Source of the DNA: Solirubrobacteraceae bacterium
Lineage (GTDB): Bacteria; Actinomycetota; Thermoleophilia; Solirubrobacterales; Solirubrobacteraceae
NCBI GenBank assembly: GCA_025935735.1
Contig: JAICUS010000111.1
Span: 1 to 12,986, forward strand
DNA: 12,986 bases
Direction of reading: 5' to 3'
Part shown: positions 149 to 12,285 of the stretch, one piece after another
How the letters are laid out: each line of letters begins with the position of its first letter
How positions within the stretch are numbered: the stretch's first letter is position 1
Made by a program: the position numbers and the translations under genes
Notes under the pieces: model-generated
What the model saw: the letters and a program-made list of their open reading frames with translations, nothing else
Databases searched by the model: none
Told to the model about the DNA's origin: nothing

Positions 149-159
149 TCATCCGCCGC

Positions 160-178
160 GGGCGAAGTGCGTTCCCCC
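160..178 (+). promoter_or_regulatory. Putative palindromic operator, weaker copy (orphan sulfatase-tail gene)
   Basis: GGGCGA-AGTGCGT-TCCCCC: each arm differs at one position from GGGTGA-N7-TCACCC, and the 6-7-6 spacing is kept. It ends 45 bp before the ATG at 224. By itself it would not be convincing. It is listed because the better copies at 1475, 1740, 6776, 10925 and 11572 have the same geometry and a similar position. Confidence 0.35.
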
Positions 179-210
179 GCCGCCCCCGGATCATCGGCGC
201 CCGTAACCCC

Positions 211-216
211 AGGAGG
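211..216 (+). promoter_or_regulatory. Ribosome binding site for the 224 start
   Basis: AGGAGG lies 7 bases before the ATG at 224. It fixes the start there rather than at the in-frame ATG at 167, which would add 19 residues that do not match the sulfatase N-terminus. Confidence 0.8.
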
Positions 217-223
217 TGGCCGC

Positions 224-481
224 ATGGCGAAGCAGTTCAACGGAAGCATCGAGCTCGACATCGACGAGGAGCAGGTCGCCGAGCAGGAGATCCGCACGGT
301 GATGGGGCACTTCTCGCTGTGCGGCGAGGGGCTGTGCATCGGCTACGACAGCGGCGACGCGGTCTCCGGCGACCGCTTCGAGTTCAGCGGCGGCAGGATC
401 GTCAAGGTGGTGTTCGACGCGGCCGACGACGCCTACGTCGACGTCGAGCGGCACCTGGAGGCCGCCATGGCCCGCGACTGA
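224..481 (+). CDS. Small orphan protein resembling the joined N- and C-termini of a sulfatase
   Basis: This 85-aa cytosolic protein has no signal peptide or membrane segment. Its first dozen residues (MAKQFNGSIELDI) match the start of the sulfatase at 6841 (MPKEFRGHIELDV). From about residue 23 to the end it follows the sulfatase's last 65 or so residues: MGHFSLCGEGLCIG against LGNFTLCGDGLCVG, then DSGDAVSG against DSSDAVSG, then EFSGGRIVKV against EFKGGTILQV, and EAAMARD against AAALARE-like endings. The roughly 690-residue catalytic core is absent, including the Cys-x-Pro-x-Arg motif, so it cannot be a sulfatase. By inference it folds as the isolated beta-rich terminal module, which could bind a sulfatase subunit, act as a small ligand-binding protein, or descend from an internally deleted sulfatase gene. 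A strong ribosome binding site and intact reading frame argue that it is expressed. The function is unknown. Confidence 0.8.
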   Translation: MAKQFNGSIELDIDEEQVAEQEIRTVMGHFSLCGEGLCIGYDSGDAVSGDRFEFSGGRIVKVVFDAADDAYVDVERHLEAAMARD

Positions 482-491
482 GCGGATGTGC

Positions 492-516
492 GGCGGGCCG
501 CCCAGGCGGCCCCGCC
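492..516. terminator. GC-rich hairpin between two convergent genes
   Basis: GGCGGGCCGCC and GGCGGCCCCGCC pair over 11 base pairs with one bulged base and a two-base loop. The hairpin fills the gap between the stop of the orphan gene (481) and the stop of the universal stress gene (519) and could end transcription from both sides. No T-run follows, as is usual in high-GC actinobacteria, so a terminator is likely but not proven. Confidence 0.5.
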
Positions 517-518
517 CG

Positions 519-1451
519 CTATCGCGCCGTCGAGCGGGCGAGGAGGTCCTCGGTGGCGCCGGCGGCGGCGCGGGGGACGATCAGCACCGGGCAGACGGCG
601 CGCTCGGCCACCTCGCGGGAGACGCTGCCGAGGATCACCGCGCGGCGCGGGCCCTGCCCGCGGGAGCCGACGACCAGCAGGTCGACCGTGTGGGAGGCGT
701 CGATCAGCGCCCGGGCGGGGTCGTCCTCGAACAGGATGTCGGTCTCGGCGTCGACGCCGAGAGCGGCCACGGCCTCCTCGAACGCCGACCGCTCGCCCAG
801 CCCCTCGCGGCCGTGGGCGGCGGCGGCCGGATCGGCGTCGTGGTGCTGGCCGGCCAGCAGGCCGGGCGCGTTCTCGCCCGCGAACGCCGGGTCGAGCACG
901 GCGACCGCGCGCAGCTTGACGTCGCCGGCCCGGGCGATCGCCGCGGCGGCGCGCAGCGCCTCGCGGCCCTCGTCGGTCGGCACGTACGCGGCGCCCACGA
1001 CCCGGATGCCGCCGTCCGGCGGCCGGTGACCTTCGGGCACCACCGCGACGGGGCAGGTGCTCGCGTGGATGACGCGCTCCAGGGTCGAGCCCAGGATCGC
1101 CGCGCTCAGCGAGCGGCGGTGGCTCGGCTCGAGCACCATCAGGCGCGGCTGCAGCTCCGCCATCGCGCGCTCGAGGGCGCCGGCCTCGGTGCGCGCCTCG
1201 AACACCCGCACCTCGGCCTGCGCGCGGCGGCGGCGCAGGTCCTCGCGCAGGTGCTCGAGCACCTGCGGCGCGCTGGGGTCGTCGTCGATGGAGCCCGCGA
1301 GGGCGCCGACCATCGCGCCGCCCTTGCGCACGACGGCGACGACCAGCGGCGCGCCGGTCAGCCGGCTGGCCGCCAGGCCGAAGTCGAGGGGCTCGCGCCG
1401 GCCCGAGAGCGGGCTGAAGACGGCGACGACCGGAGGCTGCTCGGAAGACAT
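519..1451 (-). CDS. Universal stress protein with two UspA domains
   Basis: This 310-aa soluble protein has two Usp folds in tandem, about residues 6-140 and 148-295. The second keeps the ATP-binding pattern G-x2-G-x9-G-S exactly (G262, G265, G275, S276), followed by the typical VCPVLIVP strand. The first domain keeps only the last part (ILGS at 119-122, then TCPVAVVP) and lacks the two leading glycines, so probably only the second domain binds nucleotide. Tandem Usp proteins are typical of actinobacteria, where many belong to hypoxia, dormancy or general stress programmes. Translation starts at ATG 1451. There is no strong ribosome binding site, but a palindromic site (1475-1493) lies 23 bp upstream. 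It converges with the orphan gene across a hairpin. The family assignment is firm; the exact role is inferred. Confidence 0.93.
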   Translation of the reverse strand: MSSEQPPVVAVFSPLSGRREPLDFGLAASRLTGAPLVVAVVRKGGAMVGALAGSIDDDPSAPQVLEHLREDLRRRRAQAEVRVFEARTEAGALERAMAELQPRLMVLEPSHRRSLSAAILGSTLERVIHASTCPVAVVPEGHRPPDGGIRVVGAAYVPTDEGREALRAAAAIARAGDVKLRAVAVLDPAFAGENAPGLLAGQHHDADPAAAAHGREGLGERSAFEEAVAALGVDAETDILFEDDPARALIDASHTVDLLVVGSRGQGPRRAVILGSVSREVAERAVCPVLIVPRAAAGATEDLLARSTAR

Positions 1452-1474
1452 GGCGGCGAGTCTGGATCCGCGCC

Positions 1475-1493
1475 GAGTGAGCCCGCCTCACCC
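1475..1493 (-). promoter_or_regulatory. Putative palindromic operator upstream of the universal stress gene
   Basis: On the + strand it reads GAGTGA-GCCCGCC-TCACCC, one mismatch from GGGTGA-N7-TCACCC. The inner arms, GTGAG and CTCAC, are perfect inverted repeats. The site ends 23 bp before the ATG at 1451, a usual position for a core promoter or overlapping operator in a gene with a short leader. Confidence 0.55.
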
Positions 1494-1697
1494 GCCGCGG
1501 ATGAGGTCCTCGGGTACGTGGACGACGACCGTGCCGGCGAGGAAGTCCGGCAGCGCCAGCCGCGAGCGCAGCCGGGCGCGGACCAGCGCGCCGTCGGCGG
1601 CCAGGCGGCCCATGCCGGGCAGCCGCGCGGCGAGCCCGAGCGGGAGCCGCGCCCAGGCGACCGCGGCGGCGGCCAGCGCCAGGGCGGCGTCCTCGAC
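1488..1697 (-). pseudogene. Remnant of an unidentified gene without a start codon
   Basis: The minus-strand frame ending in TGA at 1488-1490 stays open back to a stop at 1773-1775. From about 1697 down it reads like real protein: VEDAALALAAAAVAW, an amphipathic arginine/leucine-rich helix, then ALPDFLAGTVVVHVPEDLIRGG. No ATG, GTG or TTG is in frame upstream; the only in-frame ATG lies far inside and would give a 41-aa product. The piece is therefore either the 3' end of a gene whose 5' half is lost or a very small gene with a non-standard start. I do not recognise the family. Its stop codon lies inside the palindrome upstream of the Usp gene. The rest of the 334-bp gap between Usp and GH15 (1452-1785) holds only the two putative operators. 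Confidence 0.35.
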
Positions 1698-1739
1698 GTG
1701 CGCGCGGTCGTCCGCGGCCCGCGATCCTCCCGCCGGCTG

Positions 1740-1758
1740 CGGTGACGGGGATTCACCC
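1740..1758 (+). promoter_or_regulatory. Putative palindromic operator upstream of the GH15 gene
   Basis: CGGTGA-CGGGGAT-TCACCC has GGTGA and TCACC as perfect inverted arms and one deviation from the 6-bp arms of the other copies. It ends 27 bp before the ATG at 1786. Confidence 0.55.
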
Positions 1759-1785
1759 CGCCCGGATGAGGCTTAGGATGGCGCG

Positions 1786-3660
<1,875 letters not shown>

Positions 3661-3665
3661 GGCGG

Positions 3666-6062
3666 TCAGCCGGTGACGCGCGGCCTCCTCGCCGCGCAGA
3701 CCACGATCGTCCGCTTGAGCGTGACCGCCGGCGTGGCCGCGCCGCGCCGGAAGCTGACCCGGACCGCCAGCCGGTGCGGCCCGGGCGCGAGCCGGCGGTG
3801 CAGCGGCGTCGCGCGGCGCTGCACCAGGCCCACCGTCCGGCGGCTGATCCGGCGCCCGCCGACGCGGACGTCGAGGATGTGCATCAGCCGGCCGGTCAGC
3901 CGTACCTGCGAGACGCGACGCACGCACGAGCCGGTGGCGGTGATGCCGGCCACGCCGGCCGAGCCGGCGTCGGGCGGGGTGGGCAGCGGCGGCATGATCG
4001 GCCGCGGCGGCGGGCCGGGTGCCGGCTGCGGCGCCGGCGGCCCGGGACCCGGCTCCGGCTGCGGCGGCAGCGGCGGGTCGGGCGGCACGTCGGGGCAGTT
4101 GAGCGTGGTCGCGATCGTCGACTCGTCGCTCACCGTGGTCCCGCCGGCGCTGCCGCTCGCGGTCGCGGTGTTCGAGACCACGCTGAGGACGCAGTCCGCG
4201 CCGGGCGCGGCCGTCCCGCGGTCGCATTCGTAGGTCCAGGTGTCGCCCGGGTCCAGCGTTCCCGGCGTGCCGTCGCCGCCGTTGGCGTCCGCCTTGCCCA
4301 CCAGCTTCGGAGCCCGGTCGCAGTCGGGGTCGGTGACCTTGACCGACGCGGCCGGCAGCGGGAGCGTCCCGCCGGGAGGAATGGTCACGGCGAAGGTGTA
4401 GTGCAGCGTGTCGCCGGCCGTGGCGAGCGCGGGCCCGGTCTTGACGATCGCGATCGCGGGCACGCCGTCGCGGACGTTGTAGAACGTGCAGGTGACCTGG
4501 TCGCCGGCGTGCACCACCAGGTCCGTGAACGCCGTCCCCGTGCGCGTGCGCCCCCGCGCGCGCGGCGTCGTGCGGCACGTGACGCTCGATGTGTAGTCGG
4601 CGGCGTCCGTGGGCGCGACCGCCGCCTCGCTGAAGCTGTACGTGCCCGGCCGCACCGCGGCCGTCCGGCTGTCGCCGTCGCCCGCCGCGGACACGACGGT
4701 GACGCCGTTGACGATGAGGTCGAAGCGGCCGGGATCGCCGGACGGGAACAGCTGCTTGCGCACGGTGAGCTGCGCCGGCACCCAGTCGCCGAAGTCCCTG
4801 TCCTGGGCGAACGGGGTCGCCGCCGCGTCGATCGGGCCCCAGCCGCAGCCGAACAGCCCGCCGCGCCCGTCGCCGAATCCGCCGGGGGTGCCGGCGTGCG
4901 GGAACGAGCATCTCCAGGCCGTGTCGGTCGCCCGCCGGCGCAGCTGCTGCAGCGTGGCCTCCCGCAGCGTGTAGGTCCCGTTCGGCGGCCGGATGTCGTC
5001 GAGGATGTAGTGCCCGTCCTCGTCGGTCTCGGTGAGCGGCTCGTCCGCGTCGTGGACCCCGTTGCCGTCGTAGTCGGCGAACACGAAGAAGCCCGGGACG
5101 CCCGGCTCGCCCGGGTCGCGCACGCCGTCGGCATTCAGGTCGAAGAACTTGGTTCCCGAGGCGGCGCAGGAGCGCACGATCAGCGGCCGCGGCGCGAGGT
5201 AGTCCTGCAGGTTCGCGCTCACGGAGTCAGACGAGCGCGAGTGCATCCAGATCGACCCGAAGGCCAGGCAGGGGTCGTGGAAGTCGGCGTCCACGAGCTT
5301 GCTGAGGTTCAGCGCCACCTCGCCGAACACGCGCGCGCCGGCGATCGTGCTCCCGGGCGCGTAGGACCCGGGCAGGCGGGAGGCGATCGGGCCGAGGTTC
5401 ACGGCGCCCTGCTCGGAGTTGGGGTCCACGCCGGTCGCCCGGGTCAGCTCGCCGCGCCGGGCGCAACCCGTGGCGGGGTCGGCCTCGGTGGTCCGCCAGC
5501 GCTCGAGCAGCACGTCGACGCCGTTGCCGTTGCCGTGGGCCTCGACGACCACCAGCAGGTCGCCGGTGCGCCGGCAGGGGATCTTCGCGCGGCCGTTGTC
5601 CCACAGCCGGCCGTCGCGGTTGAGCTCGAAGGCGACGAACGTGTCGCCGTTGCCGGTCGCACGCGTGAACGCGAGATACAGGAACGTGTCCGCGCCCGGC
5701 TGGTCGACGGCCGACCAGGCGTCGAGGATGTTCGCCTTGGCCGGCGACACGCCCCCGTCCTCTGTCGTGAAGTCCCAGGTGTAAGGCTCCTGCTCCTTGA
5801 GGCCGGAGACGAACGCCGTGTCGTGGTCGTTCGGATCCGGGTTGTGGACCGGCCGTCCGCCGGCCTGGAGCGTCTGCCAGTCGATGTAGCCGCCGCCGCC
5901 GTCGTCCTGGTCGCCGTCCCCGCCCTGGAAGGTGCTGCCGGGGAGCGGCGTCGACGACGTCGGCACGACCTGGCCGTGCGCGGCGGGCGCGAGCGCGGCC
6001 ATCGCCAGCAGCGCCGTCAGCCCGATCTGCGCCGCCTTACGCGAAGACGACAGACCAGTCAT
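3666..6062 (-). CDS. Secreted multidomain protein with SdrD-B-like, prealbumin-like and DUF11-type modules
   Basis: The 798-aa product starts with a signal peptide (SSSRK, a hydrophobic core, and a probable cut after AAHG near residue 30). Residues 60-300 form an N-terminal domain with NPDPNDHDTAF and EPYTWDF, as seen before SdrD-B repeats in other actinobacterial surface proteins. Residues 301-370 are one SdrD B-like (Cna-B-type) module with two acidic loops of calcium-binding type, DLNADGVRD and DYDGNGVHDADE. Residues 427-533 look like a prealbumin-type beta-domain and 534-656 like a DUF11 module (VKTGP...PGDTWTYEC). A proline-rich linker (658-698) leads to a basic beta-domain (712-798) with cysteines at 713 and 789. 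There is no LPxTG or membrane anchor, so it is probably released or bound non-covalently. No strong ribosome binding site is seen; the ATG at 6062 is chosen because it directly precedes the signal peptide. Confidence 0.85.
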   Translation of the reverse strand: MTGLSSSRKAAQIGLTALLAMAALAPAAHGQVVPTSSTPLPGSTFQGGDGDQDDGGGGYIDWQTLQAGGRPVHNPDPNDHDTAFVSGLKEQEPYTWDFTTEDGGVSPAKANILDAWSAVDQPGADTFLYLAFTRATGNGDTFVAFELNRDGRLWDNGRAKIPCRRTGDLLVVVEAHGNGNGVDVLLERWRTTEADPATGCARRGELTRATGVDPNSEQGAVNLGPIASRLPGSYAPGSTIAGARVFGEVALNLSKLVDADFHDPCLAFGSIWMHSRSSDSVSANLQDYLAPRPLIVRSCAASGTKFFDLNADGVRDPGEPGVPGFFVFADYDGNGVHDADEPLTETDEDGHYILDDIRPPNGTYTLREATLQQLRRRATDTAWRCSFPHAGTPGGFGDGRGGLFGCGWGPIDAAATPFAQDRDFGDWVPAQLTVRKQLFPSGDPGRFDLIVNGVTVVSAAGDGDSRTAAVRPGTYSFSEAAVAPTDAADYTSSVTCRTTPRARGRTRTGTAFTDLVVHAGDQVTCTFYNVRDGVPAIAIVKTGPALATAGDTLHYTFAVTIPPGGTLPLPAASVKVTDPDCDRAPKLVGKADANGGDGTPGTLDPGDTWTYECDRGTAAPGADCVLSVVSNTATASGSAGGTTVSDESTIATTLNCPDVPPDPPLPPQPEPGPGPPAPQPAPGPPPRPIMPPLPTPPDAGSAGVAGITATGSCVRRVSQVRLTGRLMHILDVRVGGRRISRRTVGLVQRRATPLHRRLAPGPHRLAVRVSFRRGAATPAVTLKRTIVVCAARRPRVTG

Positions 6063-6135
6063 CCCGGACGGAGATCACCGTGTTGCCGAGTGGTCATGTG
6101 TGGAGGCAGCCATGCCGTCACAGTGCGAGCGGGCG

Positions 6136-6154
6136 GGGTGAGGCGGCCTCGCTC
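6136..6154. promoter_or_regulatory. Putative palindromic operator, partly degenerate copy
   Basis: GGGTGA-GGCGGCC-TCGCTC has a perfect left arm, the 7-base spacer, and a right arm matching TCACCC at four of six positions. It lies between the secreted-protein start (6062, minus strand, 73 bp away) and the end of the DUF389 remnant (6166). That is farther from a start than all other copies, so its target is uncertain. The rest of the 103-bp gap shows no other clear signal. Confidence 0.35.
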
Positions 6155-6165
6155 TCGCGGGATGG

Positions 6166-6750
6166 TCAGCCGGCGACGTGGCCCACCGGCTCGCGCCGGC
6201 CGGCCACGCGGTTGACCACCACGGGCGTGCCGGACGGGATCGCCCGCCGCAGCCGCGAGGTCAGCTCGGCGTCGTGGGCGCCGCCGGACATGCCCTCGAC
6301 GGCCACCACGAGCGTGTCGCCGTCGAGGCGGACGAACAGCAGGCGCTCGCCGTTGCCCTGAGCCCAGGCCGAGCCGATTCGCTGCGCCGCCGCGCGCCAG
6401 TTGGAGGGCTGCACGGTGCGGTACGTGGCGATCGCCACGCCCGGCAGGATGTCGCCGATGTCACGGCGCGAGACCGCGAAGGACCCGGCCACGCCGGTGG
6501 TCGCCGCGGTCACCAGGTCGACGATGGTCGGCGAGGCCCGCCCGGTGATCTGCGAGTTGTACTCCGGCGCGTGCAGCTGGGGCAGGACCGCGGACAGGAC
6601 CGCGCCGATCGCGATGCCCACACCACGCCCGTCGTGGCGATCACCGCCGACAGCACGAGCAGCAGCCAGAACCGGCTCTGCTTGACGCCGGCATCCGCCG
6701 AGCAGGTAGACGGCATCGCGGATCTCGTCCGAAGTGCGCAGGCCCGGAGT
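6166..6750 (-). pseudogene. DUF389 family membrane protein, broken by a frameshift and deletions
   Basis: Pieces of one DUF389 protein appear in order on the minus strand but not in one frame. First comes DEIRDAVYLLG (around 6729), then in a frame shifted by one base GVKQSRFWLLLVLSAVIATTG (6690-6630), the typical first membrane helix. Back in the first frame follow IAIGAVLSAVLP, NSQITGRASPTIVDL and DIGDILPGVAIA. The conserved stretch expected after the first helix (a D-S-x-x-V-I-G-A-M-x-x-A-P-L-M type segment, some 50-60 residues) is missing. So is the L-V-P-P-L segment after GVAIA, where the sequence jumps to a soluble C-terminal tail (GERLLFVRLDGDTLVV) ending in TGA at 6166. The 5' end is also lost. 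At least one indel and two internal deletions make a functional transporter-like protein very unlikely. DUF389 proteins have no settled function. Confidence 0.75.
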
Positions 6751-6775
6751 CAGGCGGCGACCGTAGCCCGCTCGC

Positions 6776-6794
6776 GGGTGACGTCATCTCACCC
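6776..6794 (+). promoter_or_regulatory. Perfect palindromic operator upstream of the sulfatase gene
   Basis: GGGTGA-CGTCATC-TCACCC is a perfect 6-bp inverted repeat around a 7-base spacer, the best copy in the window. It ends 46 bp before the sulfatase ATG and lies between that gene and the 5' end of the divergent DUF389 remnant, so it may once have served both. Confidence 0.6.
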
Positions 6795-6840
6795 TCTCGG
6801 GACGATGCGGGGCGACCCCGTCGGTTGTCAGCTTCCGGCC

Positions 6841-9159
6841 ATGCCCAAGGAGTTCAGAGGCCACATCGAGCTCGATGTCCGCGACTCGACCCCCGACTGG
6901 TCGCCGTACACGCCGCCGAGCGCGCCGGAGGGCGCGCCGAACGTCCTGATCGTCCTCTATGACGACACGGGCCTGGCCGCCTGGGAGCCCTACGGCGGCC
7001 GCATCCGCATGCCCACGCTGCAGCGCCTGGCCGACAACGGCCTGACCTACACGCAGTGGCACACGACCTCGCTGTGCTCGCCCACGCGCTCGTGCTTCCT
7101 CACCGGGCGCAACCATCACCAGACCGGGTTCGCCTGCATCGTCGAGGGCGCGACCGGCTATCCCGGCTCCAACGCGCACCTCCCGCGCGAGACCGGCACG
7201 ATCGCCCAGGTGCTGCGGGCCAACGGCTACAACACCTACTGGATCGGCAAGGACCACAACGTCCCGCCCGAGGAGAACAACCCGAGCGGCTCGAAGTCCA
7301 ACTGGCCGCTCCAGCAGGGCTTCGACCGCTTCTACGGCTTCTTCGGCGGCGAGACCAACCAGTGGTATCCGACGCTGACCGAGGACAACCACGCCGTCGA
7401 GCAGCCCTATCCGCCCGAGGAGGGCTACCACCTCTCCAAGGACCTGGCCGACCAGGCCCTGCGGATCCTGCGCGATGGCCACTCCGCGGCGCCCTCACGC
7501 CCCTGGTTCATGTGGTTCTGCCCCGGCGCCAACCACGCGCCCCACCAGGTCGACCCGGCCTGGGCCGACAAGTACAAGGGCCAGTTCGACGACGGCTATG
7601 AGGCCTACCGCGAGTGGGTGCTCGGACGCATGATCGAGAAGGGAGTCATGCCGGCGGACACCGAGCTGACGCCGCTGAACCCGATGCCCGAGGGCACGTT
7701 CAGCCCCGTCGACACGGTGCGGCCCTGGGACTCGCTGTCCGCCGACGAGAAGCGGCTGTTCGCGCGCATGGCCGAGGTCTATGCGGGCTTCTCGGAGCAC
7801 ACCGACCACCAGGTCGGCCGGATCGTCGACTTCCTCGAGCAGACCGGGCAGCTCGAGAACACGCTGATCCTCTACTGCGCCGACAACGGCGCCTCCGGCG
7901 AGGGCGGCCCGGACGGGTCGGTCAACGAGAACAAGTTCTTCAACGGGTGGCCGGACGACATCGCCGAGAACCTCGAGCACCTGGATGACCTCGGGGGCCC
8001 CGACACGTACAACCACTACCCGACCGGCTGGGCGGCGGCGTTCTCGACCCCGTTCAAGATGTTCAAGCGCTACTCGTACGCGGGCGGGACGTGCGACCCG
8101 CTGGTCATCCACTGGCCCAAGGGGATCTCCGCCCGCGGCGAGATCCGCAGCCAGTACCACCACGTCACCGACATCTTCCCGACGATCCTCGACTGCTGCG
8201 GCGTCGAGATGCCGGACGCGATCGACGGGTACGAGCAGGTCCCGCTCGTCGGCACGTCGATGCGCTACACGTTCGCCGCCGACGGCCCGACACGGCGCGG
8301 CGGCCAGTACTACTGCATGCTCGGCACGCGCGGGATGTGGGAGGACGGCTGGAAGGTCGTCTCCGTCCACGGCCCGACCTCCGGGATCGGCGACTTCGAC
8401 TCCGACCGGTGGGAGCTCTACCACGTCGACGCGGACCGCTCCGAGGCCCGCGACCTGGCCGCCGAGCAGCCGGAGCGCGCCGAGGGGCTGGTCCAGCGCT
8501 GGCTCGAGGAGGCGCACAAGTTCGACGTGCTGCCGCTCGACGACCGCCTCCCCGTCGAGATCCTCCGCGAAGAGCGGCCGCAGGCCGAACCGCCGCGCGA
8601 GCGCTACGTCTACTTCCCCGACGCGGCCGAGGTGCCCGAGTCGGCCGCGGTGAACATCCGCAGCCGCTCCTACCGCCTGCTGGCGGAGGTCGAGATCACG
8701 AGCCCGGACGCCGAGGGCGTGATCTTCGCCCACGGGTCGCGCTTCGGTGGCCACGCCCTCTTCCTGCACGAGCGCAGGGCGCACTACGTCTACAACTTCC
8801 TCGGCATCGCGCCCGAGCAGCGCTTCGTGTCCGAGCGGCTGGAGCCCGGCCGCTACGTGCTGGGCGTCGAGTTCACGCGCGAGTCGGCCGGCGAGCACGG
8901 CGAGTCGCACGGGACGACGCGGCTCTACGTCGGCGACGAGGTCGTGGCCGAGGGCCCGATGCGGACGCAGCTCGGGAACTTCACGCTGTGCGGCGACGGC
9001 CTGTGCGTCGGCCGCGACTCCAGCGACGCGGTCAGCGGCCTCTACCGCGCGCCGGCGGAGTTCAAGGGCGGCACGATCCTGCAGGTCGAGGTGAGCGTCG
9101 GCGACGACCAGTACCTCGACCTGGAGAAGGAGGCGATCGCCGCGCTCGCGCGGGAGTGA
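6841..9159 (+). CDS. Cytosolic type I (formylglycine) sulfatase, arylsulfatase family
   Basis: This 772-aa enzyme hydrolyses sulfate esters. The active-site signature C79-S-P-T-R83 supplies the cysteine converted to formylglycine. By comparison with known arylsulfatases, the other active-site residues are D41-D42 and D348-N349 (metal), K137 and H139 (in GKDH, the GKxH motif), H232, and a lysine near 406-409. The catalytic domain spans about 33-560. A C-terminal beta-rich extension (about 575-772) ends in the module also found alone at 224-481. There is no signal peptide, unlike many periplasmic sulfatases but like mycobacterial-type relatives that begin with the same ELDVRDS strand, so the substrate must be inside the cell. 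The frame is open far upstream, but homology begins at this ATG. No ribosome binding site is evident. The formylglycine-generating enzyme is not in the window. The natural substrate is unknown. Confidence 0.95.
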   Translation: MPKEFRGHIELDVRDSTPDWSPYTPPSAPEGAPNVLIVLYDDTGLAAWEPYGGRIRMPTLQRLADNGLTYTQWHTTSLCSPTRSCFLTGRNHHQTGFACIVEGATGYPGSNAHLPRETGTIAQVLRANGYNTYWIGKDHNVPPEENNPSGSKSNWPLQQGFDRFYGFFGGETNQWYPTLTEDNHAVEQPYPPEEGYHLSKDLADQALRILRDGHSAAPSRPWFMWFCPGANHAPHQVDPAWADKYKGQFDDGYEAYREWVLGRMIEKGVMPADTELTPLNPMPEGTFSPVDTVRPWDSLSADEKRLFARMAEVYAGFSEHTDHQVGRIVDFLEQTGQLENTLILYCADNGASGEGGPDGSVNENKFFNGWPDDIAENLEHLDDLGGPDTYNHYPTGWAAAFSTPFKMFKRYSYAGGTCDPLVIHWPKGISARGEIRSQYHHVTDIFPTILDCCGVEMPDAIDGYEQVPLVGTSMRYTFAADGPTRRGGQYYCMLGTRGMWEDGWKVVSVHGPTSGIGDFDSDRWELYHVDADRSEARDLAAEQPERAEGLVQRWLEEAHKFDVLPLDDRLPVEILREERPQAEPPRERYVYFPDAAEVPESAAVNIRSRSYRLLAEVEITSPDAEGVIFAHGSRFGGHALFLHERRAHYVYNFLGIAPEQRFVSERLEPGRYVLGVEFTRESAGEHGESHGTTRLYVGDEVVAEGPMRTQLGNFTLCGDGLCVGRDSSDAVSGLYRAPAEFKGGTILQVEVSVGDDQYLDLEKEAIAALARE

Positions 9160-9175
9160 GCCCACCACGTGATCG

Positions 9176-10380
9176 TCAGGCCACCGGGGCCGGCTCGGCC
9201 GCCAGCTCGGCCAGGCCCGCGCGGCGCAGCATCTCCAGCGGCCGCGGGTGCACGCTCGCCAGCCGCAGGTCGACCTCGTCGCGCAGCCCGGCCAGCATGT
9301 CGAGCGTCTCCACGTCGAGGTCGGTGCTCTGCGCCAGGTCGAGCACGAGCGTGTGCGCGCTCGCCGCGCGGACGGCGGCCAGCGCGCGGTCGCGCACCGC
9401 GTTGGAGTTCGCGTAGAACAGCGGCCCTTGTGGCTGCACGGTGACCCGCCCGTCCTCGGCGCGTGTGGTCACCCGCGGCCGGCTGAGGCGCTGGATGACC
9501 ACGACGAGCGACAGCCCGGCGGTGATCACCAGCCCGGGCAGGACGCCGAAGAGCAGGACGCCGGCCAGGCAGAGCAGCGCGAGCACGATCGCGCTGCGGC
9601 GCAGCCGGGCCAGGCGGTGGAGCTCGTCCACGCGCACGAACCCGGCGACGGCGACGATGACGATGGCCGCGAGCGTGGCCTCCGGCAGGTCGGTGAACAC
9701 CGGGGCGAGGCAGGCGCCGGTGAGCAGGACAGCGCGGCGGCGACGAGCGTGGCCAGCTGCGACTGCCCGCCCGCCTTGTCCGCCGCCGCGCTCTGGCTCG
9801 CGCCCCCCGACTGGACGAACCCGGAGCACAGGCCGGCCAGCACGTTACCCGCGCCGATCGCCGACAGCTCGCGGTTGGCGTCGATCCGGTAGTGGTGCTC
9901 GACCGCCATCGAGCGGGCCACGCCGGCCGCCTCGGTGGACAGCAGCCCGATGCCGAACATGAAGCCGGTCATCACCGGCTTGGACACGAATTCGGAGACC
10001 ACGCCGAGCCGCAGCAGCCCGCCCAGGAACAGCACGACGCCGGCCACCAGCGCGAGCGCGGCCGAGAGCACGGCGAAGCGTCCGGTGTCGCCATGGGCCA
10101 GCGGGCCCACGGCGGCGGCGGAGATCACGGACGTCGCCGTGGTGGCGCTGACCACCAGCGAGCGCGAGCTGCCCAGAAGCGCGTAGCCGATCAGCGCCGG
10201 CGGCGCGGCCATCAGGCCGGCCTGCGGCGGCAGCCCGGCGATCTGCGCGTAGGCCACGCACTGCGGCACGACGACGCTGCCGACCACCAGGCCGGCGACG
10301 ACGTCGGGCCGCAGCCACTCGCGCCGGTAGCCCGCGACCCAGCCGGGGAGGACGCGGCGCACCACGCCCTCCCCGCCCAT
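9176..10380 (-). pseudogene. SulP family anion transporter with STAS domain, frameshifted and internally deleted
   Basis: The gene starts at ATG 10380, one base after the DUF1269 stop (TGA-G-ATG), which points to translational coupling. The first part has SulP hallmarks: RPDVVAGLVVGSVVVPQCVAYAQIAGLPP, then GVVSEFVSKPVMTGF, then YRIDANRELSAIGAGN. Two lesions are seen. Near 9940 the expected stretch of about 100 residues between the MTGFMFGIGLL helix and the A-R-x-x-A-x-x-x-x-Y-R-I-D segment is missing in frame. At about 9729-9745 a one-base loss moves the frame, so SQLATLVAAA continues as VLLTGACLAPVFTDLPEATLAAIVIVA in another frame. The remainder covers the last helices and a STAS domain (VVIQRLSRP to the end at 9176). 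Intact SulP proteins import sulfate, bicarbonate or similar anions. The frameshift alone could be a sequencing error; the deletion is harder to explain that way. Confidence 0.8.
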
Positions 10381-10381
10381 C

Positions 10382-10882
10382 TCAGACGGCGGTGGCTTCG
10401 CGGGTCTCGAGCGCGTGGCGCAGGCGCTGCTCGGCCTCGTCGTCGAGCGAGGTCTGGATGATCTCGCCGCCGAACCTGGCGATCTCGGGGAGCACCTTGT
10501 CGGGCGTCGAGCGGTGGACGAGCACGATCACCGCGGCGCCGCCCGGCTGCAGCTTGGTGCCGAGCTCCTTGAGGAAGCTGTCGTCGACGCCGACGTCGCT
10601 GAGCGCGCCCGCGGCGGCGCCGGAGGCCGCGCCCACCGCCATGCCGAGCAGCGGCACGAAGAAGATCAGGCCGATCAGCCCGCCCCACAGCGCGCCGCCG
10701 ACCGCGCCGCCGGACGCCAGCTTGCGCGACTGGTGCAGCTTGACCTTGCCGTCCTGGCCGCGGGTGACGATGACGGCGTCCTCGAGCTCGATCGCATGCT
10801 CCGTCTGCAGTCGGGCAAGCGTGCCCATCACTTCTTCGGCGGTGCCCTGGTCGGGGAAGGCTACGGCGACGAGATTGCTCAT
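10382..10882 (-). CDS. DUF1269 family protein with glycine-rich membrane hairpin
   Basis: This 166-aa protein has the DUF1269 layout. An N-terminal alpha/beta part (SNLVAVAFPDQGTAEEVMGTL, then EDAVIVTRGQDGKVKLHQS) is followed by a glycine-zipper membrane stretch (about residues 57-95, GGAVGGALWGGLIGL and GMAVGAASGAAAGAL). A C-terminal alpha/beta part contains DVGVDDSFLKELGTKLQPGGAAVIVLV. The function of the family is not established; it is common in bacteria near stress and transport genes. The start at 10882 is fixed by AAGGAG five bases upstream; an in-frame start at 10948 would add 22 residues that look non-coding and run through the palindromic site. It is the first gene of an apparent two-gene unit with the broken SulP gene. 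If SulP is dead, DUF1269 is the only working product. Confidence 0.9.
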   Translation of the reverse strand: MSNLVAVAFPDQGTAEEVMGTLARLQTEHAIELEDAVIVTRGQDGKVKLHQSRKLASGGAVGGALWGGLIGLIFFVPLLGMAVGAASGAAAGALSDVGVDDSFLKELGTKLQPGGAAVIVLVHRSTPDKVLPEIARFGGEIIQTSLDDEAEQRLRHALETREATAV

Positions 10883-10887
10883 CGGCT

Positions 10888-10893
10888 CTCCTT
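10888..10893 (-). promoter_or_regulatory. Ribosome binding site of the DUF1269 gene
   Basis: AAGGAG on the minus strand, five bases before the ATG at 10882. It decides between this start and the longer frame from 10948. Confidence 0.8.
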
Positions 10894-10924
10894 GTCTCGG
10901 GGCGGCCCATGCTGCGACGCGGCA

Positions 10925-10943
10925 GGGTGGCCCGGCATCACCC
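10925..10943 (-). promoter_or_regulatory. Putative palindromic operator upstream of DUF1269-SulP
   Basis: On the + strand GGGTGG-CCCGGCA-TCACCC has one mismatch in the left arm and the same 6-7-6 spacing as the other copies. It ends 42 bp before the DUF1269 start and would control both genes of the unit. Confidence 0.5.
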
Positions 10944-10968
10944 GGCAAGGGCGATGCGCTGCTGACGC

Positions 10969-11404
10969 TCAGCGGGGCACTGGATCTCGCGTAGCGGCGA
11001 CGAACGGGATCGTCTCGGCGTCCAGCACCACGGCGTGCATGCCGTCCGCCGCGGCGGTGAGCCGCGCGCGCACGGCGTCGGCGTTGGCGAAGTACAGCCC
11101 GCCCTCCACGCGCAGCTGCGCGATCCCCTCCGGCGCCACGGCGTCGGGATGGCGCCGGACGTCGGCGTAGACGCCGTCCCGCAGCCGTCCCATCCGGGCG
11201 ACGTAGGGCCGCGAGGCGCGGTAGAGGAGCAGCAGCAGCGACATCGAGATGCCGATGAACAGGCCCGGCAGCGTGTCGAAGACCAGCACGCCGAGCATCG
11301 CGGCAACGGCGGCGATGAAGTCGGGCCGGGCCGCCACGCCGAACGCCCGGCCGAGCTCGCGCGCAGCCAGTCCGACCGATAGCCCCGCAGCGACGAGAAC
11401 AGGG
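10969..11404 (-). pseudogene. SulP transporter fragment, truncated at both ends
   Basis: About 145 codons match the C-terminal part of a SulP protein different from the one at 9176. They include RPDFIAAVAAMLGVLVFDTLPGLFIGI (last helices), LLLLYRASRPYVARMGRL, the linker VYADVRRHPDAVAPEGIAQLRVEGGLYFANADAV, and the first half of a STAS domain ending in AVVLDAETIPFVAATRD, then a stop at 10969. The rest of the STAS domain is missing, and so is everything upstream, where the DNA passes directly into a SHOCT-like remnant in another frame. There is no plausible start codon of its own. It looks like the leftover of two deletions, one joining it to the SHOCT-like gene and one to the DUF1269 control region. 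Confidence 0.75.
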
Positions 11405-11405
11405 C

Positions 11406-11525
11406 TCAGCCCCCGGCGTACGCGCGCTCCCGGGAGCGGGCGCCGGCGCGGCCGGCGAGGTAGGCGGTCCCGCCGAGCATGGCGCCGCGCAGCAGCGGGC
11501 GCCGCGGAGCGAAGAAGAGCGGCAT
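11406..11525 (-). pseudogene. Short SHOCT-protein-like N-terminus, probably truncated
   Basis: This frame encodes 39 residues beginning MPLFFAPRRPLLRGAMLGG and ending in ERAYAGG. It closely resembles the start of actinobacterial SHOCT-domain proteins, which open with M-P-L-F, a basic stretch, and an 'A-M-x-G-G-x-A-Y' segment before a glutamine/proline linker and a C-terminal SHOCT helix. Linker and SHOCT domain are missing, and the TGA overlaps the beginning of the SulP fragment. A palindromic site lies 22 bp upstream, so it may still be transcribed. It could also be a genuine very small protein. No strong ribosome binding site is seen. Confidence 0.5.
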
Positions 11526-11547
11526 GCGGCCAGTGTCCGGGCGCCGC

Positions 11548-11566
11548 GGGTGAAGCGGCCTCATGC
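11548..11566 (-). promoter_or_regulatory. Putative palindromic operator of the SHOCT-like remnant
   Basis: On the + strand GGGTGA-AGCGGCC-TCATGC has a perfect left arm and a right arm with four of six matches. It ends 22 bp from the minus-strand start at 11525 and lies 5 bp from the second copy that faces the divergent gene. Confidence 0.4.
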
Positions 11567-11571
11567 CGCCC

Positions 11572-11590
11572 GGGTGAGGCGCGGCCACCC
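11572..11590 (+). promoter_or_regulatory. Putative palindromic operator of the GAP-family gene
   Basis: GGGTGA-GGCGCGG-CCACCC has one mismatch in the right arm. It ends 23 bp before the ATG at 11614. Confidence 0.5.
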
Positions 11591-11613
11591 GCGCGCGGCG
11601 CAAGCTGGCGGCC

Positions 11614-12285
11614 ATGAAAGAGGCCATCGGGCAGGTGCTCTCGCTCGGTGTCGGCGTGGCGATCAGCCCCGTGCCGATCATCGCCGTCGTGCTGATGCTG
11701 GCCACGCCGCGGGCGCGGGCCAACGGCCCCGCGTTCGTGCTCGGCTGGATCGCCGGCCTGGCCGTGGTGGGCACGATCGTCCTGCTCGTCTCCAGCGGCG
11801 CGAGCGCCTCCGACAACGGGCAGCCGGCGACCTGGGTGAGCGTCCTCGAGCTCGTGCTCGGGGCGCTGCTGCTGCTGGTCGCCGTCAAGCAGTGGCGCGG
11901 GCGCCCGCGCGCCGGGGAGCACGCCGAGCTGCCCAAGTGGATGCGGGCCATCGACCAGTTCAAGCCGGGCAAGGCGCTGGGCTTCGGCGTCATCCTGTCG
12001 GGGGTCAACCCGAAGAACCTGCTCCTCACGGTCGGCGCCGCGGCGGCGATCGCCCAGACCGGCGCGAGGACGGGCACGCAGGCCGTCGCGCTCGCCGTGT
12101 TCGTGATCGTCGGGACGGTCGGCGTCGGCGCGCCCGTCGGCCTCTACCTCGCCCTCGGCGAGCGCTCGCGCCGCGCGCTCGACGAGCTCAGGTCATGGAT
12201 GGCCGCCCACAACGCCGCGATCATGGCCGTGCTGATGCTGGTCATCGGCGCCAAGCTGCTCGGGGACGGCCTGTCCGGCCTGTGA
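11614..12285 (+). CDS. GAP/Sap family integral membrane protein (LysE-like fold)
   Basis: This 223-aa protein has six predicted membrane helices in two groups separated by a charged loop (KQWRGRPRAGEHAELPKWMRAIDQFKPGKA, about 92-121). The first helix carries GVAISPVPIIAVVLML, and the second half opens with GFGVILSGVNPKNLLLTVGAAAAIA. This combination is typical of the GAP family (Pfam Sap, sulfolipid-1-addressing protein), related to LysE-type exporters. In mycobacteria one member helps move a lipid across the membrane; the substrate here is unknown. The start is ATG 11614, with no clear ribosome binding site but a palindromic site 23 bp upstream. Its last 93 bp overlap the convergent membrane-protein frame on the other strand. 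Confidence 0.88.
   Translation: MKEAIGQVLSLGVGVAISPVPIIAVVLMLATPRARANGPAFVLGWIAGLAVVGTIVLLVSSGASASDNGQPATWVSVLELVLGALLLLVAVKQWRGRPRAGEHAELPKWMRAIDQFKPGKALGFGVILSGVNPKNLLLTVGAAAAIAQTGARTGTQAVALAVFVIVGTVGVGAPVGLYLALGERSRRALDELRSWMAAHNAAIMAVLMLVIGAKLLGDGLSGL

Follow-up and report, generated by a model that had tools for sequence, protein, structure and literature searches.

Half-site arrays in the window

We analysed a 12,986-nucleotide stretch of DNA from a Solirubrobacteraceae bacterium (contig JAICUS010000111.1; hereafter the window), in which an earlier note had pointed out a recurrent palindrome, GGGTGA-N7-TCACCC, upstream of most genes. Allowing up to two mismatches, the palindrome occurs eight times, at 160, 1475, 1740, 6136, 6776, 10925, 11548 and 11572, with exactly the 6-7-6 geometry, coordinates and mismatch counts that had been noted; five of the eight copies have at most one mismatch, and the copy at 6776 is a perfect dyad. 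These numbers far exceed chance, as 200 Markov simulations gave a mean of 0.64 (maximum 4) against the 8 observed at up to two mismatches, and a mean of 0.03 (maximum 1) against the 5 observed at up to one. Other spacers (0-6 and 8-20) yielded zero to three window sites apiece at up to two mismatches, and the excess is lost at three mismatches, where 11 sites are observed versus 7.6 expected and 28 of 200 shuffles come to at least the observed number. All eight copies are intergenic by our gene reading, in which the sulfatase start is set at 6841, with the copy at 1475 running over the stop codon of a short putative frame on the minus strand.

Scanning with the half-sites R = GGRTGA and C = TCAYCC, we found that the palindrome (R-N7-C) is accompanied by a second inverted repeat, which we call the core (C-N5-R). 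At up to two mismatches the window holds six cores, all six also with at most one mismatch (simulated mean 1.3), and eight R-N7-C palindromes, six with at most one (simulated mean 1.7; 60 simulations). All six cores with at most one mismatch sit at the palindromes of the earlier note, GGGTGA being preferred over GGATGA within them. For seven of the eight palindromes, one half-site is also part of such a core; the exception is the copy at 6136, where the core has three mismatches. Each palindrome consists of the inner core half and an additional TCACCC located 7 bp promoter-ward (the outer half-site), and the copies at 11548 and 11572 overlap and belong to a single four-half-site array. The eight copies resolve into seven arrays, in which the repeating unit is a set of three or four half-sites at a constant distance from a -10-like hexamer, NANNNT. 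The dimeric palindrome that had been taken as the unit is real but incomplete. The arrays are as follows.

Array 1, 149..194, plus strand: TCATCC-N5-GGGCGA-N7-TCCCCC-N10-GATCAT, towards an 85-aa sulfatase-C-terminus-like protein (ATG 224, AGGAGG upstream)
Array 2, 1459..1504, minus strand: TCATCC-N5-GGGTGA-N7-TCACTC-N10-CAGACT, towards the universal stress protein (Usp) gene (ATG 1451, predicted leaderless)
Array 3, 1724..1769, minus strand: TCATCC-N5-GGGTGA-N7-TCACCG-N10-GAGGAT, towards a short minus-strand frame (about 1488-1700)
Array 4, 6120..6165, minus strand: CCATCC-N5-GAGCGA-N7-TCACCC-N10-CACTGT, towards a secreted protein (ATG 6062)
Array 5, 6760..6834, bidirectional: rightward CAGCTT towards the sulfatase (ATG 6841, predicted leaderless), leftward TACGGT towards a DUF389 remnant
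Array 6, 10909..10954, minus strand: TCGCCC-N5-GGGTGA-N7-CCACCC-N10-CAGCAT, towards DUF1269 (ATG 10882) and possibly the SulP gene downstream
Array 7, 11532..11606, divergent: four half-sites, GGGTGA-N7-TCATGC-N5-GGGTGA-N7-CCACCC, with -10-like GACACT on the left and CAAGCT on the right

Array 3 can also be read rightward (1729-1773), towards the GH15 gene (ATG 1786), with a weaker match of 4 mismatches. Array 7 has predicted leaderless starts on both sides, that of a 39-aa minus-strand frame (ATG 11526), which the earlier note had labelled "SHOCT-like", and that of the SfLAP gene (ATG 11614, plus strand). The DUF1269 gene is preceded by a Shine-Dalgarno-like AAGGAGAG. One regulatory element is common to most transcription units of the window, as the earlier note had proposed. 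The principal gene products are listed below.

85-aa protein, 224..481, plus strand: similar to the sulfatase N-terminus fused to its C-terminal domain, no Pfam match
Universal stress protein, 519..1451, minus strand: Usp PF00582, two matched stretches
Secreted-looking protein, 3666..6062, minus strand: DUF7507 at cutoff, SdrD_B and SpaA below cutoff
Arylsulfatase, 6841..9159, plus strand: PF00884
DUF1269 protein, 10382..10882, minus strand: Pfam match
SfLAP/GAP-type membrane protein, 11614..12285, plus strand: PF11139

The 85-aa protein resembles an arylsulfatase minus its catalytic part: 8 of its first 13 residues agree with the sulfatase start, and the remainder resembles the sulfatase C-terminal domain (47% over 83 aa). 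The SulP (9176-10380) and DUF389 (6166-6760) genes look frameshifted when read from their frames, reflecting either decay or assembly errors, and a truncated second SulP-like C-terminus at 10969-11406, between two arrays, was recognised by tblastn to SulP genes of relatives. The short minus-strand frame downstream of array 3 (1488-1700) ends LPDFLAGTVVVHVPEDLIRGG and has neither an identifiable start codon nor a Pfam match.

A constant geometry of predicted promoters

The position of the -10-like hexamer was examined in 100 arms around intergenic C-N5-R cores from 20 loci, which were picked partly by pattern. NANNNT starts beyond the core at offset 22 in 27 of these arms and at offset 23 in 26, compared with a mean of 2.3 per offset, and 9 of the 12 window arms have it at one of these two positions, predicting transcription starts about 34-36 nt from the core. 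The start codons of Usp, the sulfatase and SfLAP lie 35-36 nt from the core edge, so that these genes are predicted to be leaderless. Among listed site-start pairs, the distance from core to start is 34-37 nt in ten cases, 30-33 nt in two and 38-41 nt in one, the window sulfatase (35 nt) being left out of this list with its frame merged with one upstream; many further starts in the list lie about 55-67 nt from the core and appear to follow a Shine-Dalgarno-like stretch. A further ATG peak falls at 27-28 nt from the core, the place at which the final AT of a -10, when G follows, spells ATG; the ATG profile is therefore not by itself proof of leaderless starts.

Combining the core, the outer half-site and NANNNT at 22/23 into one composite rule with up to four mismatches, we found 11 composites in the window against a simulated mean of 0.02 (maximum 1; 100 runs), although these are not independent, as the pairs in array 5 and in array 7 each share one core. 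One of the 11 is the rightward reading of the array 2 core (1488-1532), which has a -10-like hexamer without an outer half-site or a called gene.

The intergenic location and the preference for a 7-base spacer, both of which the earlier note had put forward, extend beyond the window. Across 245 kb from 17 array loci, in whose selection the array pattern played a part, the N7 palindrome (up to one mismatch) occurs 22 times, only twice inside genes in sequence that is 84% coding interior, compared with three at N6 (all inside genes), none at N8 and one at N5. The same loci contain 58 N5 cores (10 inside genes), versus 2 at N4, 11 at N6 (10 inside genes) and 2 at N7.

Arrays and LAL genes in other Actinomycetota

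At least one perfect palindrome was present in 72 of 396 Actinomycetota genomes, and the three-half-site pattern matched 28 places in 16 of the 396, compared with 3 control matches. Perfect cores occur in 23 of 61 Catellatospora-family genomes and in 12 of 27 genomes of the class of G304, mostly one per genome; these single cores are probably chance, and isolated matches elsewhere are mostly chance as well. Genome G201 has three perfect palindromes and 12 with at most one mismatch (0 in the reversed control), without a three-half-site match. Geometry-supported arrays were found in 11 genomes (G020, G035, G211, G104, G443, G425, G304, G103, G274, G393 and G231), with fewer or differently arranged sites supporting G103, G274, G393 and G231. 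Four of the 11, G103, G020, G035 and G211, had been picked for follow-up by palindrome count or clustering.

In the window and in G020, G035 and G211, a TCAYCC (up to one mismatch) at offset 7 was found in 19 of 25 arms having the -10 and in 0 of 19 arms lacking it, in a group found via the array pattern, which needs one outer half-site and is silent on the -10. This confinement of the outer half-site to -10 arms means that the palindrome marks the direction of transcription. In G104, G443 and G425, by comparison, the outer half-site occupies offset 7 in 2 of 24 arms having the -10. The outer half-site is present in some genomes and absent from others, and does not follow taxonomy cleanly, because G211 shares its family with G443 and G425. 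In G103, which looks mycobacterial from its PGRS-like protein stretches, 10 of 22 arms show the N7 palindrome followed by NANNNT at offset 10, in the same register and without the N5 core. The region concerned (L085-L087) is a dense N7-palindrome cluster with three LAL (large ATP-binding LuxR-family) genes, in which the distal arrangement differs, TCACCCGGGTGA lying about 10-11 bp away.

Conservation upstream of orthologous genes, which the earlier note had anticipated, was observed for SfLAP and for one sulfatase. On an 8-kb contig of G020 (L088), two palindromes with cores precede the called start of the SfLAP homologue (57%) by 39-81 bp. The sulfatase homologue (64%) is preceded at 48 bp by a perfect N7 palindrome, and the core there has a 6-bp spacer. 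The SfLAP arrangement is repeated in G035 (L092), of the same class as G020, and the third genome examined of that class, G049, had no match to the three-half-site pattern. Genes preceded by arrays in various relatives encode SfLAP, sulfatase, SulP, DUF1254, DUF2252, DUF2267, AhpC-type and PPK2 proteins (PPK2, with a core, in G443), as well as DUF6069 (G035, G443), DUF1269 (G104) and a LOR protein with a ZIP-like neighbour (ZIP below cutoff). An MRLGR-like region of G104 (L169 and L137) has 12 N5 cores with at most one mismatch in about 40 kb, along with sulfatases, SulP, DUF1269 and a LAL gene.

LAL-type genes lie near the arrays in 8 of the 11 genomes with geometry-supported arrays, five of these finds being independent of the sequences that seeded the helix-turn-helix (HTH) profile used. 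The stretches examined contain large LAL proteins in G020, G211, G104, G443, G425, G103 and G274 and an HTH fragment in G035. At 20 control loci around chance palindromes no large LAL was detected and two had small LuxR-type proteins, the control stretches being shorter than those of G103, G443, G425 and G104. The LAL of G020 is cut by the contig end, has TPR_MalT and GerE domains, and shares its 8-kb contig with the SfLAP and sulfatase arrays; its closest solved structure is MalT 8bob (E 2.4e-33). In G035 a LAL-type HTH, of which only a C-terminal fragment is in frame, lies 0.6 kb past the SfLAP gene. TPR_MalT scores above cutoff in the LALs of G020, G274, G425 and G443 and below it in those of G104, G103 and G211. 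A VS(V/L)NTVKTH-like recognition helix is common to most of the LAL HTHs that lie near arrays of the N5-only or the N5+N7 kind; the LAL HTHs of G104 and one of G443 depart from it. In G287, a LAL gene lies near a pattern match lacking the -10.

A proposed MalT-like activator and its alternatives

The regulon element is real. The earlier note had assigned it to a regulator that it did not name, and an HTH profile search found no regulator gene in the window; the half-site, the spacing, the distance to the -10 and the neighbouring genes nevertheless point to a MalT/LAL-type LuxR-family activator, and we consider it likely, judging from sequence, that the palindromes belong to arrays through which such a regulator activates transcription. 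In the available portions of PMC7567727, MalT of Actinoplanes sp. SE50/110 (ACSP50_3915) has the core TCATCC-N5-GGATGA, located 34.4 +/- 1.0 nt from mapped starts, and the regions termed MRLGRs contain PPK2 (in related genera) and MalT-like regulator genes in an order that varies between species. The core and the regional grouping of many poorly annotated, transport and enzyme genes are alike here (PMC7567727); the start distance predicted here, about 34-36 nt, is consistent with the mapped one, and LAL-type genes lie near the arrays in 8 of the 11 supported genomes. In contrast to the Actinoplanes element as presented there, the window and its relatives favour GGGTGA and have, on the promoter side, a further TCACCC 7 bp inward from the core; their gene content is partly different (Usp, sulfatase, SfLAP). 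The arrays are thus best explained as an architectural variant of the known Actinoplanes-kind MalT/LAL element, the new part being the additional promoter-side half-site. As quoted in PMC7567727 and PMC9628970, the MalT boxes of E. coli and Klebsiella are GGGGA(T/G)GAGG, with the half-site GGA(T/G)GA; there too a LAL activator acts near the -35, as is proposed here, but those boxes are direct repeats at mal genes (quoted in PMC6099782), whereas the half-sites here are inverted with N5 and N7 spacers and no mal genes were seen. The LAL TpdR of Rhodococcus was also compared, and the site proposed for it in the accessible part of PMC6099782 differs from the arrays. The earlier note knew of no description of the motif; GGGTGA-N7-TCACCC and the outer half-site were likewise not found among the listed matches in the open-licence literature, but the core is printed for Actinoplanes MalT (PMC7567727) and the half-site for BldM (PMC4125116), in the portions of these papers available.

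Several observations weigh against this reading. The composite rule was derived with the window sites included, and the pattern itself had a part in selecting the loci. At ten pattern-found loci outside the 20-locus geometry set, the -10 is present in only 3 of 24 arms. The window holds no regulator gene, three of the 11 supported genomes (G304, G393 and G231) have no LAL in the stretches examined, and five HTHs of G103, G020 and G035 served as seeds for the HTH profile, such that these three match by construction and the independent LAL finds are those of G211, G104, G443, G425 and G274. Among 30 GH15 loci, including five at 73-78% identity, none has a core with fewer than three mismatches within 120 bp (upstream of one of the five, that of G304, two perfect cores lie at distances of about 150 and 255 bp), and the array beside GH15 in the window scores better towards the minus strand than towards GH15, making GH15 a doubtful regulon member. 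Similarly, 72 sulfatase loci show no N7 excess, with 37 sites at N7 versus 54-103 at spacers 5, 6, 8 and 9. Conservation therefore did not hold for GH15 orthologues or for sulfatases at large, and since sulfatase loci lack the N7 preference and GH15 loci lack a near core, the element is tied to the region more than to the gene.

The HTH of the response regulator BldM belongs to the LuxR family. An atypical response regulator resembling BldM (NarL/LuxR-type HTH), acting by itself or within a heterodimer, might bind the palindromes, since the BldM half-site is identical (TCACcCgnncGgGTGA; PMC4125116). However, the group I sites of Streptomyces described in the available part of that paper combine TCACCC/GGGTGA with N4 spacing at developmental genes, whereas N4-spaced TCACCC/GGGTGA (up to one mismatch) is absent from the window and the partly pattern-picked array loci have 2 N4 against 58 N5 cores. 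LALs, moreover, are the regulators found beside the arrays (BldM genes were not searched for), and we regard a BldM-like protein as improbable.

The constant distance between the outer TCACCC and the -10-like hexamer could also be expected if an alternative sigma factor read GGGTGA/TCACCC as promoter hexamers without any activator. The two are only 9-10 bp apart, however, closer than a -35/-10 pair would be, and symmetric cores used both ways, together with the match to the MalT site, suit an activator better, rendering a sigma factor very unlikely. We give equally little credence to a CRP/FNR-type or other dimeric regulator binding GGGTGA-N7-TCACCC alone, which would account for the perfect dyad at 6776, for the CRP-like GTGA/TCAC arms, and for the N7 palindromes of G103 that have the -10 at offset 10 without an N5 core. 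CRP sites have an N6 spacer, and GGGTGA-N6-TCACCC, the only form of CRP-type spacing tested, is absent from the window at up to two mismatches and occurs three times in the 245 kb, always inside genes, in line with the earlier note's remark that CRP-type GTGA-N6-TCAC does not fit. Furthermore, a core of at most one mismatch overlaps seven of the eight palindromes by one half-site in a fixed register, and G443, G425 and G104 retain the N5 core almost always without the N7 arm, both of which argue against a dimer acting alone. The palindromes might also act as hairpins in the 5' leaders of RNAs, since they can form a 6-bp stem with a 7-nt loop and the copies at 6136 and 10925 remain pairable through G-U. 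However, a pair is broken in five of the imperfect copies (160, 1475, 1740, 11548 and 11572), which number seven in all, Watson-Crick compensation is seen in none, and the predicted -10 and start are downstream of the arrays, making this explanation hardly credible.

For the MalT-like activator, the element in promoter orientation would be TCAYCC-N5-GGRTGA-N7-TCACCC-N9/10-NANNNT-N6/7-start. The TCAYCC-N5-GGRTGA core would abut or overlap the -35 region, with about 34-36 nt separating its inner edge from the start, and the extra TCACCC, on the transcribed side, would fall between -35 and -10. A LAL oligomer that is loaded with effector and bound to ATP may occupy the half-sites jointly and recruit RNA polymerase, driving both directions where each side of the array has a -10. 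Computed here were the architecture, its statistics, its occurrence in relatives and the nearby LAL genes, from which we infer protein-DNA contact, activation, the effector, the start sites, the regulator's presence in the source organism and, because the window holds no gene for it, its identity. An unlikely elaboration is a two-register switch for a STAND-type regulator, in which a LAL dimer on the outer N7 pair, which extends between -35 and -10, would shut the promoter and on the N5 pair would open it: GGRTGA is shared by both palindromes in different registers, and the switch presupposes that a symmetric LAL dimer fits only one at a time. Such a switch would extend to the window, G020, G035 and G211, with G103 having another distal arrangement.

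Taken together, a seemingly undescribed motif is tied to a little-studied class of ATP-dependent LuxR-family regulators. The promoter rule is sharp enough to predict, given only the sequence, where transcription would start, in which direction, and which genes would be leaderless; the regulon, many of whose genes are little understood, could be listed across several actinobacterial groups. The additional promoter-side half-site, finally, makes the mechanism of oligomeric LAL activation testable.

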